29,583 bases of DNA. It comes from a virus. This document shows positions 436-29,583 of the stretch, one piece after another (the stretch's first letter is position 1; the number at the start of each line of letters is the position of its first letter). The stretch lies in IMG/VR virus record IMGVR_UViG_3300025626_000094, positions 1-29,583 of that record, one strand, 5' to 3'. The notes beneath the pieces are model-generated. The model was given only the letters and a program-made list of their open reading frames with translations, was not told the DNA's origin and did not search any database. A program made the translations under genes and the position numbers.

Positions 436-451
436 TTGTTTGTTATTTTAA

Positions 452-494
452 ATTCATATATATTATCGAAAGGGGATCGTATTTAGTTTGTAAA
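452..494 (-). promoter_or_regulatory. 43-bp promoter/operator-like element, copy 1
   Basis: First of four 43-bp copies, all in the same orientation and each just upstream of a leftward gene. In plus-strand terms all four share ATTCA at columns 1-5, TATATTATCG at 8-17, CGTATT at 27-32 and TGTA at 38-41. This copy ends 16 bases before the ATG of the 112-aa gene. Its inner inverted repeat is imperfect (CGAA-N5-ATCG). Either a promoter or a repressor-binding promoter region fits; the exact -10/-35 assignment is not clear. Confidence 0.7.
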
Positions 495-514
495 GGTGTA
501 AAATTATTTATAGG

Positions 515-764: not shown

Positions 765-821
765 AAAAGTGTGACGTTAGCTTGTTATATTAATATAATA
801 GCAGGCTATTGTCACGTTTTT
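765..821 (+). terminator. Long hairpin followed by a T-run (terminator-like), copy A
   Basis: Bases 765-788 pair with 798-821: a stem of 24 positions with one T-T mismatch (777/809), several G-U wobbles and an AT-rich loop. The 3' arm ends in TTTTT. All wobbles are G-T in the plus strand, so the fold is better in plus-strand RNA, while minus-strand RNA would carry A-C mismatches. The 5' arm begins with an A-run, so a terminator could work in both directions. Its closest leftward neighbour is the gene ending at 839. A related hairpin is at 2128-2183. Confidence 0.65.
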
Positions 822-838
822 AGGGGTTGATCCTAAGA

Positions 839-1177
839 CTACTTTTCAGTAGCCTCAGTTTCAATTGTTTCACGTTCTGACAGATGTCTAACATTTGCTG
901 GCATATCAGTTGACTGTGACCAGTATCCGCGTTTGATCCAACATGGCATGATATTTAGTTTAGGTAACATCGCTTGTAAGACGTCATCATGATTGTAGGT
1001 TACTTTGATACTTGGTTTTGTTTTAGTAGCTTTCGAGTTGAAAGTTATGATTTGATTTCTACCTAGCCATGATTTTCTGACTACAAAGTTTGCTCGAGTG
1101 ATCGGTGGGAAGATTAGAGCTTTTTCTTCAGTTGACATTTTTGCGATTGCAGTTGTAATTAATTCTTGATTTGACAT
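839..1177 (-). CDS. Hypothetical phage protein, 112 aa
   Basis: The start ATG (1177-1175) follows promoter-like copy 2 (1214-1256) by 36 bases of A/T-rich leader. The gene stops just before the hairpin at 765-821, so it looks like a self-contained transcription unit. The protein has a helical N-terminus (about residues 1-20), a mixed basic centre including NQIITFNSKATKTKPSIKV, and a hydrophilic tail rich in Glu and Thr (ETIETEATEK). There is no signal peptide or membrane segment. I recognise no domain. It is probably a small early or accessory protein of the phage. Confidence 0.7.
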   Translation of the reverse strand: MSNQELITTAIAKMSTEEKALIFPPITRANFVVRKSWLGRNQIITFNSKATKTKPSIKVTYNHDDVLQAMLPKLNIMPCWIKRGYWSQSTDMPANVRHLSERETIETEATEK

Positions 1178-1535: not shown

Positions 1536-1676
1536 CTACTCCGTAGTGTCCCATGCTTTGAGCTGGTCTGCTATCTGTTGCTGCTCAGGCGTAAGATCCT
1601 GGCTCAGGCCATTGATCCTGATACATTGCACGTAGCTGGTTCCATCTGGTCTGGTTACTATTTCTGATCTGTACAT
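1536..1676 (-). CDS. Small hypothetical protein (46 aa)
   Basis: An ATG at 1676-1674 opens 46 codons ending in TAG at 1538-1536. The start lies inside the end of the 43-aa gene upstream (overlap 1658-1676), suggesting coupled translation of a two-gene unit behind promoter copy 4. The peptide (MYRSEIVTRPDGTSYVQCIR...) reads like a short beta hairpin, SEIVTRPDGTSYVQCIRING, followed by a helix, LTPEQQQIADQLKAWDT. Codons are noticeably richer in G and C (CAG, CTG, GCC, ACG) than in the rest of the leftward block, so it may have a separate origin. No family recognised. Confidence 0.6.
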   Translation of the reverse strand: MYRSEIVTRPDGTSYVQCIRINGLSQDLTPEQQQIADQLKAWDTTE

Positions 1677-1789
1677 TGTGTTCTGTTGTTAAGATTGTAC
1701 AATGCGGTTGCGTACGGTTTTGTATATCCTTCTGCGATCCAGTCCGCGATTGTTCTGTTTGGGGCGTTGTAATTGTCTTCGGTAGTCAT
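1658..1789 (-). CDS. Small hypothetical protein (43 aa)
   Basis: The frame is open further upstream, to 1978, but only because the tract there lacks stop codons by composition. I choose the ATG at 1789-1787: it sits 17 bases behind promoter-like copy 4, and its leader (CTAAAATGATATACAAT) aligns with the leaders of two other genes in the block. The peptide is MTTEDNYNAPNRTIADWIAE followed by GYTKPYATALYNLNNRTQCTDQK. It has a likely short helix at ADWIAEGY and no recognised domain. Its end overlaps the start of the 46-aa gene by 19 bases. An alternative in-frame start four codons upstream (MIYN) is possible. Confidence 0.55.
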   Translation of the reverse strand: MTTEDNYNAPNRTIADWIAEGYTKPYATALYNLNNRTQCTDQK

Positions 1790-1806: not shown

Positions 1807-1849
1807 ATTCATATATATTATCGGTATCGTATCGTATTCTCTCTGTAAA
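1807..1849 (-). promoter_or_regulatory. 43-bp promoter/operator-like element, copy 4
   Basis: The most upstream copy of the family, 17 bases before the chosen start of the 43-aa gene. It keeps the ATTCA, TATATTATCG, CGTATT and TGTA blocks, but columns 33-37 differ (CTCTC instead of TAG-type). Its inner repeat is imperfect (CGGT-ATCGT-ATCG). It directly abuts the GC-rich, T-depleted tract. Confidence 0.65.
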
Positions 1850-1860
1850 CGTATGCTTCG

Positions 1861-2038
1861 CGAACCAGACCACAGGCCAAGGCCAGGACCAGGCACGGGA
1901 ACAAAAACGCACGGCAACGAAACAACCAGCACCAGCGCAATAGCTCGGGCCCGGACAGAAAAAGCCAGAACCAGGCACGAAATCACACGCAAAAGCCGAA
2001 ACCGTACGGCAAAACCCAAAAAAAGGCAGGGGGCCCGG
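1861..2038. other. GC-rich, almost T-free tract between the two gene blocks
   Basis: Only four T residues occur in these 178 plus-strand bases (1941, 1945, 1983, 2005), and bases 1859-1940 contain none. G+C is 37/60 in 1861-1920, against an AT-rich background. A 16-bp direct repeat with one mismatch, GCCAG(G/A)ACCAGGCACG, lies at 1882-1897 and 1964-1979. Frames stay open here because stop codons need T, so the 62-codon plus-strand frame at 1853-2041 (Arg/Pro/Thr/Lys-rich) is not good evidence for a gene. The tract sits between the leftward and rightward blocks, where an origin, packaging signal or control region could lie. Confidence 0.7.
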
Positions 2039-2127
2039 TAAAATGAAACGCGTTTTCCCACAGGATTAAGGGCATTAAGGTAAGGTGTAACCCCCATGCT
2101 CTCTATATATAATATTTTTTTTTAAAA

Positions 2128-2183
2128 AATAGTGTGACAATAGGTAGTTATATATAATAGTAGTAGGCTATCGTCGCATTATT
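2128..2183. other. Hairpin related to the one at 765-821, copy B
   Basis: Bases 2128-2143 pair with 2168-2183: 15 of 16 positions, with two G-U wobbles and one A-C mismatch. The upper part is looser and AT-rich. The arms resemble copy A: GTGTGAC and GTTATAT on the left, TATAATAG and AGGCTAT on the right. On the minus strand the stem is followed by a run of six T, so it could end leftward transcription. On the plus strand it lies in the leader of the rightward block, about 60 bases before its first ATG. Confidence 0.55.
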
Positions 2184-2241: not shown

Positions 2242-2505
2242 ATGGCAAAACCAAAAAGGAAAGGCGGACCGAAACAAAAATTAAGTCCAGTAGCAGCGGC
2301 AGCAAAGGCAATTAGAGACAAGAAGTATGCCATGACGGACAGAAGAAGGAAGATGAAGGCAGAGAGTCAAAGGAAAAATTGTTCTAAAGGCCATGATTAT
2401 GACCATAATACCAAAAGATGTGTTACATCGTCTCATAACAGGGGTGGAACGCAGAGTAGAAGTAAAAAAGACGGTACTAAAGCCGAACGTAAACAAAATA
2501 GATAG
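2242..2505 (+). CDS. Small basic hypothetical protein, 87 aa, first rightward gene
   Basis: First gene of the rightward block. ATG follows the leader at 2184-2241, and the next gene starts three bases after its stop. The protein is strongly basic, with a Lys/Arg-rich N-terminus (MAKPKRKGGPKQK), a helix around residues 16-43 and a centre with NCSKGHDYDHNTKRCV, where two Cys and two His could bind a metal ion. The tail is again Lys/Arg-rich. It could bind nucleic acid or be a minor virion protein. I recognise no named family. An overlapping minus-strand frame (2281-2496) is a shadow. Confidence 0.65.
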   Translation: MAKPKRKGGPKQKLSPVAAAAKAIRDKKYAMTDRRRKMKAESQRKNCSKGHDYDHNTKRCVTSSHNRGGTQSRSKKDGTKAERKQNR

Positions 2506-10293: not shown

Positions 10294-11847
10294 ATGAATG
10301 GAATTGTCAAGAACTTGAACTTTGGTGATGACGCCAGAGATCAAGTATTTAAAGGTATAGAGAAACTAGCAAAAGCCGTTAGCTCTACACTAGGGGCTGG
10401 CGGTAAATGCGTAATGCTAGAAGACAGTGCAGGTAACCCTATTATAACAAAAGACGGTGTAACTGTAGCAAATTCAATAATACTTTTAGACCCTGTAGAA
10501 AACATGGGATCTACTTTATTAAAAGAAGCTGCTAGAAAAACTGTACAAGAAGCCGGTGACGGAACAACAACAGCTACTGTATTAGCTCACTCTATATTAA
10601 AAGAAGCTTATGCTGTTTCTGGAAAGAAAAACTCTAGAGAAATTAAAGACGGTATAAATTCAGCTGTAGAAAAAGTTATAGATTACTTAGATACTATAGC
10701 TACCGATGTTAAAGGTAACATGTTAGATCACATAGCTTCTATATCGGTAAATAATGACAATGAACTAGGATCTATTATAGCAGACGCTTTTAGATCTGTA
10801 GATAATACAGGTATTGTAATGATGGAAACTGCCGGTGACGGTAAAACTGTTTCTGAATTAATTGAAGGAGTTCCTTATGACAAAGGTTTAACAAATTCTC
10901 ATTTCATTACAAACCCTCAAACAAAAACAGCGGAATTAGAAAACCCGTTAGTGTTAATAATGGAATCACCAGTTAACACTATAAGAGATATACAAAAAGT
11001 GCTGGAGTACGTAATAAAAAACAACAAACCTTTGCTTATAATAGGCGACTTAGAAGAAGGTGTTTTATCAACTCTAGCTACAAATAAGAAGAAAGGGAAC
11101 TTAAAAGTTAATGTAATTAACGCTCCAACTTACGGTATAAGTAAGAGAGAAGTTCTTGAAGACCTTTCTTTACTAACAGGTGCCACAATATTTAATGAAG
11201 ATTTAGGAGATGATGCAGATTCTATTGATTTAGATTATTTAGGTTCTTGTCTAAAAAGTGTTACGTCTCACGAGGACACTGTTATAACAGTCTCTGAGGC
11301 ATCCGAAAAGATAAAGGATGTAATACGTAGTATAAAAGAAAAGCTTACAAATAACACGCTTAAAAGTTGGGAAGTTATAAAGCTTGAAAAAAGATTATCA
11401 ATGCTAACTGCTAAAATTGCGGTGGTTAAAGTTGGTGCAAACTCTGAAGTAGAGTTAAAAGAAAAAACAGACAGGGTAGAAGATGCTATCTGCGCCACGA
11501 AAGCGGCTGTTAAAGAAGGTATTGTTCCAGGTGGAGGTGTTGCATTACTAAATGCAGGTCAAAAGCTAATAGCTAAAAATATAGGAGAAAAAGTTTTGTT
11601 AAAAGCAATACAAGCTCCTTACTTTACAATATTAGAAAACGCTGGAATAGAAATGTCTGATATACAAGACGAAGGAATTGGATTAAACGCTTTAACAGGT
11701 AAACCTGTAAATATGGTGGATCAAGGAATAATAGATCCGCTTATGGTAACCAAGAGTGCATTAAGAAACGCTGCGTCTGTAGCTACTACGATATTATCAA
11801 CTGATTGTGTAATTAATAATTTAAGAGCAAATGAAGGCGATAGGTAG
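10294..11847 (+). CDS. groEL: Phage chaperonin GroEL (517 aa)
   Basis: An ATP-driven barrel chaperonin that would fold client proteins in the host cytoplasm, with GroES as the lid. The sequence shows ITKDGVTVA (D54, matching the D52 ATP-site residue of the bacterial protein), GDGTTTAT at 88-95 (D89, equivalent to D87), VEDAICATKAAVKEG (D397, equivalent to catalytic D398) and VPGGGVALLNA at 411-421. Equatorial, intermediate and apical regions are all present. The protein is shorter than the ~548-aa bacterial GroEL and lacks the C-terminal GGM tail, ending CVINNLRANEGDR. It overlaps groES by 17 bases, with groEL first, the reverse of the usual bacterial order. The start ATG sits in an A/T-rich leader. 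Likely clients are capsid or fibre proteins (inference). Confidence 0.95.
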   Translation: MNGIVKNLNFGDDARDQVFKGIEKLAKAVSSTLGAGGKCVMLEDSAGNPIITKDGVTVANSIILLDPVENMGSTLLKEAARKTVQEAGDGTTTATVLAHSILKEAYAVSGKKNSREIKDGINSAVEKVIDYLDTIATDVKGNMLDHIASISVNNDNELGSIIADAFRSVDNTGIVMMETAGDGKTVSELIEGVPYDKGLTNSHFITNPQTKTAELENPLVLIMESPVNTIRDIQKVLEYVIKNNKPLLIIGDLEEGVLSTLATNKKKGNLKVNVINAPTYGISKREVLEDLSLLTGATIFNEDLGDDADSIDLDYLGSCLKSVTSHEDTVITVSEASEKIKDVIRSIKEKLTNNTLKSWEVIKLEKRLSMLTAKIAVVKVGANSEVELKEKTDRVEDAICATKAAVKEGIVPGGGVALLNAGQKLIAKNIGEKVLLKAIQAPYFTILENAGIEMSDIQDEGIGLNALTGKPVNMVDQGIIDPLMVTKSALRNAASVATTILSTDCVINNLRANEGDR

Positions 11848-12097
11848 AAACTTAATAATAAAGAAAGAAAAAGAAGGTATAACTCCTACAAAGGGAGGAT
11901 TACTTTTAGCTGAAAAACAAAGAGAAGATATCAGGTACATTAAAGCATCTGTAGTATCTCCAGGGGAAGAAGCTATTAATGCTGGTATGAAAGAAGGTGA
12001 TTTAATATATTACGACAGACATGCCGGTCATATCATAGAAATAAACGGTGATCCGTATCAAGTTATAAAAATGCAAGATATAGTTGTAGTTTTATGA
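11831..12097 (+). CDS. groES: Phage co-chaperonin GroES (88 aa)
   Basis: The lid partner of GroEL. The N-terminus MKAIGRNLIIKKEKEG matches the first strand of GroES. TKGGLLLAEK at 20-29 is in the position of the mobile loop that docks on GroEL. SVVSPGEEAINAGMKEGDLI at 40-59 corresponds to the V-x-x-x-G...VKVGD core, and YQVIKMQDIVVVL to the final strand. At 88 residues it is slightly shorter than bacterial GroES (~97), mainly in the loop and roof regions. It starts inside the end of groEL and ends in an ATGA overlap with the next gene, so the three are probably translated as one unit. Confidence 0.9.
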   Translation: MKAIGRNLIIKKEKEGITPTKGGLLLAEKQREDIRYIKASVVSPGEEAINAGMKEGDLIYYDRHAGHIIEINGDPYQVIKMQDIVVVL

Positions 12098-14854: not shown

Positions 14855-15460
14855 ATGAGAAGTCTATATGATTTTATCGTCAAGCCGCTTGGTGATAAAT
14901 ATGACAACGAAATAAAGCTAGGAGACGTTACACTAATACTAAACACTAAAATTGAAAACTTTAAAGCAGTTAATAATTTAGCTATAGTAGTTGAAACTCC
15001 AAAAGCTTTTAAAACAGATATTAAAAAAGGAGACATAATAATAATACATCATAATGTATTTAGAGTTTTTTATGATATCCGAGGTAATAAGAAAAAAAGT
15101 AGATCATACTTTAATGATGATTTATATTTTTGTTCAGCAGATCAAATATATTTGTATAAGAATACCGGGGATTGGAAATCATTTGGCGACAGATGCTTTG
15201 TAATGCCTTTGAAAAACAAAGACACTTTAAGGTCACAAAAAGAGCAAGAACTTATTGGTATACTAAAAATCGGTAATAGTTCGTTAAAAGCACTTAATAT
15301 CAACCCAGGGGACACGATTGGATTTACTCCAGGCAGTGAATGGGATTTTATTATAGATGATCAGAGAGTTTATTGTATGAAATCTAATGATATTGTAATT
15401 AAGTATGAACACAAAGGAAACGAAGAAGAATATAATCCAAGCTGGGCATGTAGCAGTTGA
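14855..15460 (+). CDS. Second GroES-like co-chaperonin candidate, two modules (201 aa)
   Basis: Two segments each follow the GroES strand order. Module 1: FIVKPLGDKY (7-16), NLAIVVETPKAF (41-52), KKGDIIIIHHNVFRV (57-71), YFCSADQIYLY (91-101). Module 2: RCFVMPLK (113-120), ELIGILKIGNSS (132-143), INPGDTIGFTPGSEWDFIID (149-168), VYCMKSNDIVIKYE (172-185). The GD-I/V-x-x turn followed by a strand and a final D-I/Q-x-x-x strand is the GroES core. This suggests a tandem co-chaperonin or a T4 gp31-like lid variant. No mobile loop with GG was found. It begins right after the 75-aa gene, and its last 56 bases overlap the next gene. Confidence is moderate without a structure search. Confidence 0.5.
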   Translation: MRSLYDFIVKPLGDKYDNEIKLGDVTLILNTKIENFKAVNNLAIVVETPKAFKTDIKKGDIIIIHHNVFRVFYDIRGNKKKSRSYFNDDLYFCSADQIYLYKNTGDWKSFGDRCFVMPLKNKDTLRSQKEQELIGILKIGNSSLKALNINPGDTIGFTPGSEWDFIIDDQRVYCMKSNDIVIKYEHKGNEEEYNPSWACSS

Positions 15461-25853: not shown

Positions 25854-28800
25854 ATGGCTGAAATTAAAAATACATTTCTCAAAGGCAAGATGAATCAAGA
25901 TCTTGATCCTCGTATAATACCTAATGGTGAATATAGAGAGGCTATAAATTTAGCCTTGAGTAGATCCGAGGGTTCAACTGTTGGTGAGTTTGAAAATATT
26001 TTAGGTAATAAATCAATTTCACAAACAGAAAATTCAGCTATAATAATAGGTTTTTACGTAGACGAGTCTAATGATAGAGTATTCATTTTTGCTACAAATC
26101 ATAACAGCGCTAGCGGAGATTACAACACTTCGGCTAATAATTATATATATGAACTATCTTTAGCTGGTAGCTACACTAGAAAAACATTAGTTTATGGTGC
26201 GTTTTTAAATTTTAATCAATCATTTCCAATAATTGGTATAAATTTAGTAGAAGATCTTTTATTTTTTACTGACAACTTAAATCAACCCCGCAAAATAAAT
26301 ATAACATTAGCTAACCCAGAAGGCGCATCAAACCCTAATCATTATACTAAAGAAGAACAAATATCAGTAGCTAAATACGCTCCATGCGAGCCTATCATAA
26401 CTATGGATAGAATTGTAGTACAATCAGACGCTGGTAGTAATGTTAGTACTCTAACTGTTAATGATTCCACAGGCATAAGACCAGGCGATGCTGTATTTCC
26501 TTTAGAAACAATAACTGTTCCTAGTGGCTGGGACAATAGAGTATACGTTGTAGCAGTAAATCCTGGAGGAGTATCTAATACGATAACTTTGTCAAGACCA
26601 GTGACTGTTGCGTCTAACGAAAAACTATCTATAACTAGATCAACAGCTACTAACAAGACAAATGAGTACAATCCTAATGGACTTAAAGTGCAGGGTATTT
26701 CTATACCCTCAGGAACAGGCACTAGTACTGTTTACCAATTTTCACTTCCAGCTTTAAGCAAAGAGGCTGCTGTTATACCTAACCTAGGTGATTTAGTTTT
26801 AATGACAGATGTAGCAGGTACAACTAATTATCTTCCAGATAACACATCTATAGTCAGCGCAACAGCTACACAATTTTCAGGAAGTGGTGAATTTTTAACC
26901 TGGCAAGTTACTTTATCTAACGCACCTATAAACTTACCAAATCCCTGGCCTGGATCTGCTGTTATGAAGCTAGGTGTTAATTCAGATTATGATCCGCTTT
27001 GGTCTCAACAAGATTCTAACTCTAAGTTTTTAGAAGACAAATTTGTTAGATTTAGTTACAGGTTTAAATTTGAAGATAACGAACATTCTTTAATGGCTCC
27101 TTTCACTCAGCCTATATTTATACCTAAACAATTTAGTAACTTCGGTGGTGGAACAGATTCTTTAACCGAAGATATGGATAACGCTTACAAATCTACAATA
27201 GTTGCCTGGTTTGAAAATAACGTTCAAAATGTATTATTAAAAATACCGCTACCATATAATACTCTACAACAAAATATAAATAATCTTTTAATAAAAGATA
27301 TAGATATACTTTATAAAGAATCAGATGCTTTAGCAGTGAAAGTTTTAAACACTGTAGATATAGTAAACTTACCTAATAAAACAAATAACCTAGAATACAT
27401 AGAGTGGTATGACGCTGTACATGGGGATAATGATACTTATTATTATCCATATAATTACGCTTCTAGCAAGCCTTATAAAACTCTTCCCAATAATGATGTT
27501 ACTAGAGTGTATGACAAAGTGCCTGTAAAGGCATTATCTCAGGAAATTATAGGTAATAGAGTTGTCTACGGAAATTATATAGACAAACACTCGAGCCCTT
27601 CTGATATACCGTACGCAGCTATAGTTAAGGACAGAGACGCTTATAGCGTTAACACTATAGAATACCCGTCTCATACTTTAAAACAGAACAGAACTTATCA
27701 GGTAGGATTTATATTAGCTGACAAATACGGCAGGCAATCAAATGTAATACTATCCTCTCATGATTATAATGAAAACGAAGAAGGTGGATCAACCGTATTT
27801 GCTCCATATAAAACATATGCTCAACAAGAAAATAATTCTAAAGTTATAAACTGGCTAGGAGACGCTTTGAGCGTTAGAATTGATTCTGCTATAGGTACAG
27901 AAACTACGGGGGGTCAACCAGGTGTTTACAATGGTGACTCTACCTCTAGTAATTATAATCCTTTAGGTTGGTATTCGTACAAAATAGTTGTTAAACAGCA
28001 AGAACAAGAATATTATAATGTGTATTTACCGGGATTTGTAGATGGTTATCCTGTAATTAATTCAACAGAAAAAGATAAAACATCGTTTTCAGTGTTGCTA
28101 AGTGACAATATAAATAAAGTTCCTAGAGATCTTAATGAAGTAGGTCCTAATGATAGAGAATATAGTAGTAGTGAGAGTCTTTTTATAAGAGTAAATAACC
28201 CAGCTATAAACACAAGCGCTACAGCGGGTGATAGACCTTATGGTTATCCACAAAAATTTGAACCTTGGAATAAACAATACTACCCAGGCTTAATAAGACA
28301 GGAAGTTACAACAATATCTACAGTCAGAGATTTAGAAATATCAGGTATACCTTTTGTAGCCGATGCTCCAGAAGGGGAATATGGCTCTGTTGTTACAACT
28401 AGCAGTTATACCTACCAAACACCACCGTATGGAGGGGCAGTAACAGGGGTTGAGGAAAATACTAACCCTACAGGATCTATACCCTGGGGACAATCACCTA
28501 AATTACAGCCATTATATGATTCAGACTCTAATCCTTTTATTTTACAAATAAGTACTACGCAGAACGGAAAAACACCAAAGCCGCAACCAAGACCTACCCG
28601 CCCTGGGCCTATAGGCGCTTATACAACAAACAAAGATAGAGCAACAGCTGGTGGCTTAATAGTTAGCATGCAGCCGTTTTTATCGATAGCTGAAACAAAA
28701 CCATTTGAATCTGTTTTAGAATTATTTTACGAAACTTCACTTCAAGGTAAAGTAGCTGTTTTAAATGAAATAATAAATAGTCAATATGCGGGAATTATAG

Positions 28801-29583
28801 GTATTGATGGAAATAATTTTGCTTCTTTTTCAGAAAGTCTTGCTCCGGAAAGTCAAATAGGTAGTAGTAATATAATTTGGAAAGATGGGTCAGGAACAAA
28901 TATAACAGACAACAACTTATTTACATCAACTCCTGTTATACTGTCTGCCTATAGAGCTAGCGACGTAGGTCAAAGCAATAATATAGCTAATCAATTCCAG
29001 TTGGTTTATTCAAATATAGACGCTCAGTACCAGTTAAAAACAGCAGCTGCAACATATTTTTGGTACAGTGAAGACTCGGCTGATAACCCTTCTAGTGATA
29101 TTTACAATTTAACCTTTCAAACTACTTATGAACCGGTTTCTGGAACAGTGTATACTGATAATACAACATATACAGCTACTTTAACTAATGAACAACCAAC
29201 ATTCACATTGCCCGCAACTTGTCCGTTAGCTTTGACAGGTATAACCACAAGTACGTCTACAATTTATAGTTTTGCAGCTGAAAACGGGAGTAATACTAGC
29301 GGAGGTAATGAAGCTAGCGAATTACTTTTTGAATTAGATTCTAGTAACCCACAAGCTATATTAAATGGATTTAGCATAAGTTCCTCAGGTGTTTTAACCG
29401 CTAATTCAGGTACTTTGGTTGATGAAGATGCGTATAGCATAATTGTTAAAGTTACAGACGCTAATGGGTTTGGTTCGTCTAACACATGTACTATCTCATT
29501 TACTGTTGGCACAGACCCTGTTCCTCAAACTATTTGTGCTGGTAGACAAGGAGGTACGAACGCTGAATGTAATGAAAACATAG
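25854..29583 (+). CDS. Very large tail protein, truncated at the window edge (>1243 codons)
   Basis: A continuous frame starts with ATG at 25854, seven bases after the 400-aa gene, and remains open to 29583, so its end lies outside. The N-terminus (KNTFLKGKMNQDLDPRIIPN, then GEYREAINLALSRSEGSTVG) is a pattern common in tail hub or nozzle proteins of marine short-tailed phages, as I recall it. Most of the protein is beta-rich and repetitive in character (for example NRVYVVAVNPGGVSNTITLS, KFVRFSYRFKFEDNEHSLMA, GWYSYKIVVKQQEQEYYNVY). Near the right edge, AENGSNTSGG...LLFELDSSN and ...DEDAYSIIVKVTDANGFGS resemble a cadherin-like domain. It probably forms the tail hub or nozzle, with the added domain possibly touching the host surface. 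Confidence 0.75.
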   Translation, partial: MAEIKNTFLKGKMNQDLDPRIIPNGEYREAINLALSRSEGSTVGEFENILGNKSISQTENSAIIIGFYVDESNDRVFIFATNHNSASGDYNTSANNYIYELSLAGSYTRKTLVYGAFLNFNQSFPIIGINLVEDLLFFTDNLNQPRKINITLANPEGASNPNHYTKEEQISVAKYAPCEPIITMDRIVVQSDAGSNVSTLTVNDSTGIRPGDAVFPLETITVPSGWDNRVYVVAVNPGGVSNTITLSRPVTVASNEKLSITRSTATNKTNEYNPNGLKVQGISIPSGTGTSTVYQFSLPALSKEAAVIPNLGDLVLMTDVAGTTNYLPDNTSIVSATATQFSGSGEFLTWQVTLSNAPINLPNPWPGSAVMKLGVNSDYDPLWSQQDSNSKFLEDKFVRFSYRFKFEDNEHSLMAPFTQPIFIPKQFSNFGGGTDSLTEDMDNAYKSTIVAWFENNVQNVLLKIPLPYNTLQQNINNLLIKDIDILYKESDALAVKVLNTVDIVNLPNKTNNLEYIEWYDAVHGDNDTYYYPYNYASSKPYKTLPNNDVTRVYDKVPVKALSQEIIGNRVVYGNYIDKHSSPSDIPYAAIVKDRDAYSVNTIEYPSHTLKQNRTYQVGFILADKYGRQSNVILSSHDYNENEEGGSTVFAPYKTYAQQENNSKVINWLGDALSVRIDSAIGTETTGGQPGVYNGDSTSSNYNPLGWYSYKIVVKQQEQEYYNVYLPGFVDGYPVINSTEKDKTSFSVLLSDNINKVPRDLNEVGPNDREYSSSESLFIRVNNPAINTSATAGDRPYGYPQKFEPWNKQYYPGLIRQEVTTISTVRDLEISGIPFVADAPEGEYGSVVTTSSYTYQTPPYGGAVTGVEENTNPTGSIPWGQSPKLQPLYDSDSNPFILQISTTQNGKTPKPQPRPTRPGPIGAYTTNKDRATAGGLIVSMQPFLSIAETKPFESVLELFYETSLQGKVAVLNEIINSQYAGIIGIDGNNFASFSESLAPESQIGSSNIIWKDGSGTNITDNNLFTSTPVILSAYRASDVGQSNNIANQFQLVYSNIDAQYQLKTAAATYFWYSEDSADNPSSDIYNLTFQTTYEPVSGTVYTDNTTYTATLTNEQPTFTLPATCPLALTGITTSTSTIYSFAAENGSNTSGGNEASELLFELDSSNPQAILNGFSISSSGVLTANSGTLVDEDAYSIIVKVTDANGFGSSNTCTISFTVGTDPVPQTICAGRQGGTNAECNENI

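Follow-up and report, generated by a model that had tools for sequence, protein, structure and literature searches.

We identified the GC-rich, T-poor tract at 1859-2038 of the window (the whole 29,583-base IMG/VR record analysed here) as the hypervariable left part of a conserved, cis-acting and non-coding element of ~350 bp, which lies at the switch between the early left arm and the late right arm of the phage; comparison with relatives supports this assignment well. We give a probability of roughly 0.4 to the reading that the element includes the phage replication origin or control region, and origin function, the initiator and any R-loop are inferred. The comparisons indicate that the conserved part adjoins the tract on its right, mostly outside the coordinates of the first-pass annotation, and that it is the variable part which has the odd composition. 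The locus is a genuine control region, conserved and non-coding, whose hypervariable tract is unusual, and it constitutes a candidate origin or terminus region for a widespread group of uncultured marine phages, apparently of Bacteroidota. As a conserved module, it can be searched for in other genomes and tested by plasmid or phage assay.

In its terminase, portal and virion proteins the window matches phage families, and a long open frame (25856-29583, plus strand) continues past the right-hand limit of the record. The window is therefore a fragment; it comes from an uncultured podovirus of ~60-64 kb that is distant kin of Elemovirus and Pachyviridae. Its terminase is 65% identical to that of the uncultured podovirus MW202828, 45% to those of Flavobacterium phages of the genus Elemovirus, 38% to that of Cellulophaga phage phi13:2 (Pachyviridae) and 29.5% (~30%) to that of Tenacibaculum phage Gundel_1; no DNA similarity to phage records was found. 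The window also encodes a 517-aa GroEL and, next to it, a Cpn10 co-chaperonin of 88 aa (10294-12097, plus strand); a further GroES-like protein is encoded at 14855-15460. Two complete or near-complete relatives, one of 60.6 kb and one of 63.6 kb with a 127-nt end overlap, are both two-armed. The left arm of the relatives holds small early genes and encodes a sigma-70 region 2 protein, an ERF annealing protein, an exonuclease, a 206-aa HTH protein, a T7-gp4-like primase-helicase, thymidylate synthase and ribonucleotide reductase, and the right arm carries the structural genes. No DNA polymerase gene was seen among the left-arm proteins scanned.

Recounting reproduced exactly the T counts, G+C count and repeat coordinates of the first-pass annotation. 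T is absent from 82 consecutive plus-strand bases (1859-1940), four T fall within 1861-2038 (at 1941, 1945, 1983 and 2005) and five across 1859-2040, and 104 of the 180 bases of 1861-2040 are G or C. The longest other T-free run in the window has 39 bases, the expectation for runs of at least 82 is 1e-8 at the window's T content, and the maximal-scoring T-poor segment window-wide is the tract itself (score 50.6; runner-up 16.5). Its T-poverty is far beyond chance. The internal 16-mer direct repeat, whose copies differ by one mismatch, is only mildly to moderately unusual for such composition: of 400 shuffled tracts with dinucleotide content kept, four held an equally good repeat. Among all 50-mers of the window, the one beginning at 1907, within the tract, is the most stable. 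On the plus strand, the most C-depleted segment of the window is a C-poor stretch at 1096-1500, largely the leftward gene and promoter DNA. As had also been claimed, the tract sits between leftward genes (839-1177 and 97-435) and rightward genes (2242 onward). The features of the region are as follows.

771-815, plus strand: second dyad box, GTGACGTTAG...CTATTGTCAC, in the same orientation as the dyad at 2134-2177 and without a G-box
839-1177, minus strand: leftward 112-aa gene, 55-100% identical in relatives
1810-1823, minus strand: leftward early-promoter-like motif, CATATATATTATCG on the plus strand
1859-2038, plus strand: T-poor, GC-rich tract of ~180 bases, its left part (1861-1980) hypervariable among relatives
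1882-1897, plus strand: internal direct repeat copy 1, GCCAGGACCAGGCACG
1957-1988, plus strand: weak copy (7 edits in the window) of a motif, CAGGAAAAAGCCYGAATCCTGCACGGAATCC, that some relatives carry upstream of their G-box
1964-1979, plus strand: internal direct repeat copy 2, GCCAGAACCAGGCACG
2025-2059, plus strand: conserved G-box, GGCAGGGGGCCCGGTAAAATGAAACGCGTTTTCCC, which carries a palindromic tail and overlaps the tract's right end
2101-2130, unstranded: AT-rich stretch CTCTATATATAATATTTTTTTTTAAAAAAT, counterpart of ATATATCTAACAAAAAATTTTTT in the element of relatives
2134-2177, plus strand: dyad or promoter-like box, GTGACAATAG...CTATCGTCGC, preceding the first rightward gene
2242-2505, plus strand: first rightward gene, encoding an 87-aa basic protein conserved in relatives

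Relatives were recruited via the neighbouring 112-aa and 87-aa genes and via the dyad. At the same position these have a tract that is rich in GC and often poor in T, and that in the nearest relatives stops ~98 nt short of the dyad; an acquired insertion, one of the options raised in the first-pass annotation, is rejected on this ground. Comparison of the upstream regions among relatives revealed a shared G-box (GGGGG..GG-AAAA-GAAACGnGTTTCC), AT-rich stretch and dyad, and from left to right the element comprises the leftward early-promoter-like motif, the variable tract, the G-box, the AT-rich stretch and the DNA dyad, followed by the first late gene. We used 55 non-redundant copies to build a profile, which matches the window at 1990-2187 (E 5e-45), and nearly full-length matches, from G-box to dyad, were obtained in 136 fetched loci (not deduplicated). 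The full element generally occurs once per genome, and the dyad alone recurs. Elemovirus elemoE and MW202828 gave no match to the profile, and literature searches returned nothing on this element. One contig (IMGVR_UViG_3300047157_000162, 129,537 bases) carries two differing copies of this type of phage ~62 kb apart (L054/L100 and L103), each with the element and a primase-helicase, and is probably two genomes joined in assembly.

The 112-aa protein encoded to the left has many invariant residues across relatives and a confident AlphaFold model; it has no match in Pfam, PHROG or PDB, and no PDB relative was found for the model. A search of bacterial genomes found its family in only two metagenome-assembled genomes, one of them labelled Sphingobacteriales, and therefore indicates no firm host.

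Within the tract, the two ends evolve differently. In the closest distinct relative (L051), the right part is 95-98% identical, which equals or exceeds the identity of most of the next gene, and the left carries a short deletion; against three further relatives (L050, L052, L055) the left part is unalignable, and 1981-2040 keeps 77-80%. We measured base composition over the 192 nt ending at the G-box in 47 non-redundant relatives, among which the tract region has diverged beyond alignment and is often GC-rich still. Median T was 0.22 and median A 0.32, T was rarer than A in 38 of the 47, and one relative (L085) showed the opposite strand bias, being A-poor. Since strong T-poverty (T at most 0.15) was found in only 12, it is a strong lineage feature and not a rule. 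The word CAGGAYC is enriched in the same set (70 copies, in 27 of the 47 and in none of the other 20), with CAGGATC/GATCCTG observed 48 times against 0.9 expected (~50-fold); the window's own tract holds one CAGGAYC copy. The coding strand of a 46-aa ORF at 1537-1677 (minus strand) shares this vocabulary, with CCAGACCAG and CAGGATC twice, and the ORF may be a small gene that arose from repeats of this kind. The persistence of a tract that is unalignable yet GC-rich and often T-poor would make selection on strand composition directly testable.

If the element includes an origin, the GC-rich, strand-biased tract and the G-box would adjoin a promoter dyad and AT-rich DNA that melts readily. The region would be opened by transcription running rightward, by a DNA-binding protein or by both, and the T7-gp4-like primase-helicase encoded by the phage would be loaded at this site, acting with the host polymerase. 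With T scarce on the plus strand, a rightward transcript would pair into an RNA:DNA hybrid of unusual stability and would form few hairpins, as befits transcription-primed opening. The non-coding nature and conserved position of the element count for this reading. An iteron-type origin calls for AT-rich DNA that melts, and the AT-rich stretch is conserved in relatives, with the 50-mer from 2104 among the six least stable of the window; it also calls for repeated initiator sites, a part for which CAGGAYC, with the distribution given above, is the candidate. No initiator protein was recognised; the left arm encodes the 206-aa HTH protein and the gp4-like primase-helicase. For a transcription-primed origin, a hybrid formed in one direction is expected, and the computed energetics agree: with rightward RNA, no other 150 nt in the window favour an R-loop as much as the tract does, and leftward RNA is unfavourable. 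Shuffled tracts reached nearly the same value; R-loop favourability is therefore a consequence of composition, and of the R-loop element proposed earlier this energetic part stands.

Among relatives of at least 45 kb, 30 of 41 encode a T7-gp4-type primase-helicase, as do all 24 of at least 58 kb; those in which it was not detected are contigs of 45-54 kb, and in a few of the 41 the element matched only in part. Elemovirus elemoE and MW202828, which lack the element, carry another primase type, and the Elemovirus-type primase was found in none of the 41, in a search with no positive control among the records. By gene content, this association favours a replication role, the primase link amounting to one lineage and two contrasts since the contigs were recruited via the element or its neighbours. 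In the two complete relatives, cumulative GC- and AT-skew reach their minimum at the element; the maximum occurs at the point where the two arms meet and not across the genome from the tract, and the skew therefore tracks gene direction or transcription. T7-type primase sites (GACCA on the plus strand) were enriched over pooled T-poor tracts, but were rejected as a general feature: they come with the CCAGGACC repeats, and clades with GATCCTGG words showed none. Phasing of A-tracts was likewise rejected, the spacing of run starts being irregular. Against an origin speak this skew pattern, the failure to recognise an initiator, the compositional cause of the R-loop favourability, the lack of universal T-poverty, the single CAGGAYC copy in the window's tract and the 20 relatives without that word, and the predicted physical ends of the cultured distant relative Gundel_1 at such a junction.

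A plain divergent promoter control region is a less probable but plausible account. The G-box, AT-rich stretch and dyad would then regulate the late promoter, the leftward motif would be the first early promoter, and the T-poor tract would be an insulating spacer free of promoter-like sequence. Four related 62-nt leftward promoter-like copies lie on the minus strand of the window (436-497, 1198-1259, 1430-1491 and 1791-1852), and the core CATATATATTATCG (at most two mismatches) occurs several times in the genome of each relative; most copies share one orientation, and most lie within a few kilobases to the left of the element, near the start of the early arm. Dyad-like boxes also occur elsewhere in the genomes, and the phage encodes the sigma-70 region 2 protein. 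The dyad shows no RNA-type covariation, by which an RNA hairpin was rejected; it is therefore probably a protein-binding site or promoter. However, the other dyads recur without G-box and AT-rich DNA, which are therefore neither part of every such promoter nor needed for one, and a spacer need not stay GC-rich and strand-biased across divergence that erases alignment.

Sequence alone cannot separate an origin from a genome terminus used in packaging (a direct terminal repeat, a cos site or a pac site), and we consider the origin more likely, the terminus being rated on a par with the plain promoter account. The terminase would cut near the tract, and both arms would be transcribed inward from the ends. 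Such an arrangement is suggested by Gundel_1 (Pachyviridae; NC_062747), for which PhageTerm predicted a 322-bp direct terminal repeat that separates a leftward from a rightward block of genes and adjoins DNA with strand asymmetry (PMC8776804), although its terminal region has no G-box by eye. Moreover, the first rightward gene is present on 54 contigs (L097-L150), of which 32 end at most 1.73 kb to the left of that gene and two at most 1.73 kb to the right. The left ends, however, spread evenly over 1.6 kb, and what near-complete contigs miss is the early region; assembly breaks at variable early DNA therefore explain the ends equally well, and we rejected these ambiguous ends as proof of a terminus. 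Also against this reading, the complete relative with the end overlap is cut elsewhere (the 127-nt overlap is k-mer-like), and the terminase gene lies 13 kb from the tract. Pac sites are usually near terminase genes.

It is improbable that an origin is set here by strand composition and not by sequence, the lack of T being selected for a stable, hairpin-free rightward hybrid that opens the DNA for the gp4-type primase-helicase; if true, a composition-defined origin would let the tract sequence drift freely between phages. Highly improbable is a rapidly evolving non-coding RNA or leader, as might be supposed from the T-poor, unstructured RNA-like composition of the tract and from the rightward dyad at 771-815, ~1 kb upstream. 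Folding was no better, and often worse, than in dinucleotide shuffles (both strands, 25 sequences), consensus folds lacked covariation support and Rfam gave no match, and a structured RNA was rejected on these grounds. A small basic protein of 62 aa (ORF 1853-2041, plus strand) has hardly any likelihood: the frame is open in the window and, by inspection, in L051 with an in-frame deletion, but lack of T alone predicts open frames, as the first-pass annotation had anticipated, the other relatives compared show stops or frame-shifting indels, no frame has an excess of synonymous changes among the relatives compared (the L001/L051 pair, aligned without a true gap, giving unreliable counts), and the ORF has no family match; with the frame not kept and no third-position signal, a protein-coding gene was rejected. 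The options first listed (origin, packaging site or terminus, R-loop, acquired DNA) are partly supported: what holds is a cis-acting role at the arm switch, supported by a position conserved in relatives and by a non-coding, unstructured tract.

Like the Gundel_1 direct terminal repeat, the tract lies between divergent gene blocks and adjoins strand-asymmetric DNA; unlike the tract, the Gundel_1 terminal region is T-rich, no G-box or dyad was seen in it, and that phage has other replication genes. The phage lambda ori and the iteron-type origins of phages and plasmids are non-coding and combine short repeated words beside an AT-rich stretch with promoters. The element resembles them in being non-coding and in its AT-rich stretch and putative promoters, with short repeated words in part of the relatives, and differs in that its repeat word varies in number, orientation and presence, with a single copy in the window's tract, and in that no initiator gene was recognised. 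Transcription-primed origins (the T7 primary origin, the T4 R-loop origins and ColE1) feature a promoter and AT-rich DNA, a gp4-type primase-helicase and a hybrid-stabilising composition. Unlike in these, no phage RNA polymerase was seen, and the late promoter is preceded by a tract rich in GC and poor in T; like them, the element joins a putative promoter to AT-rich DNA in a phage with a gp4-type primase-helicase, and its computed composition would stabilise a hybrid.
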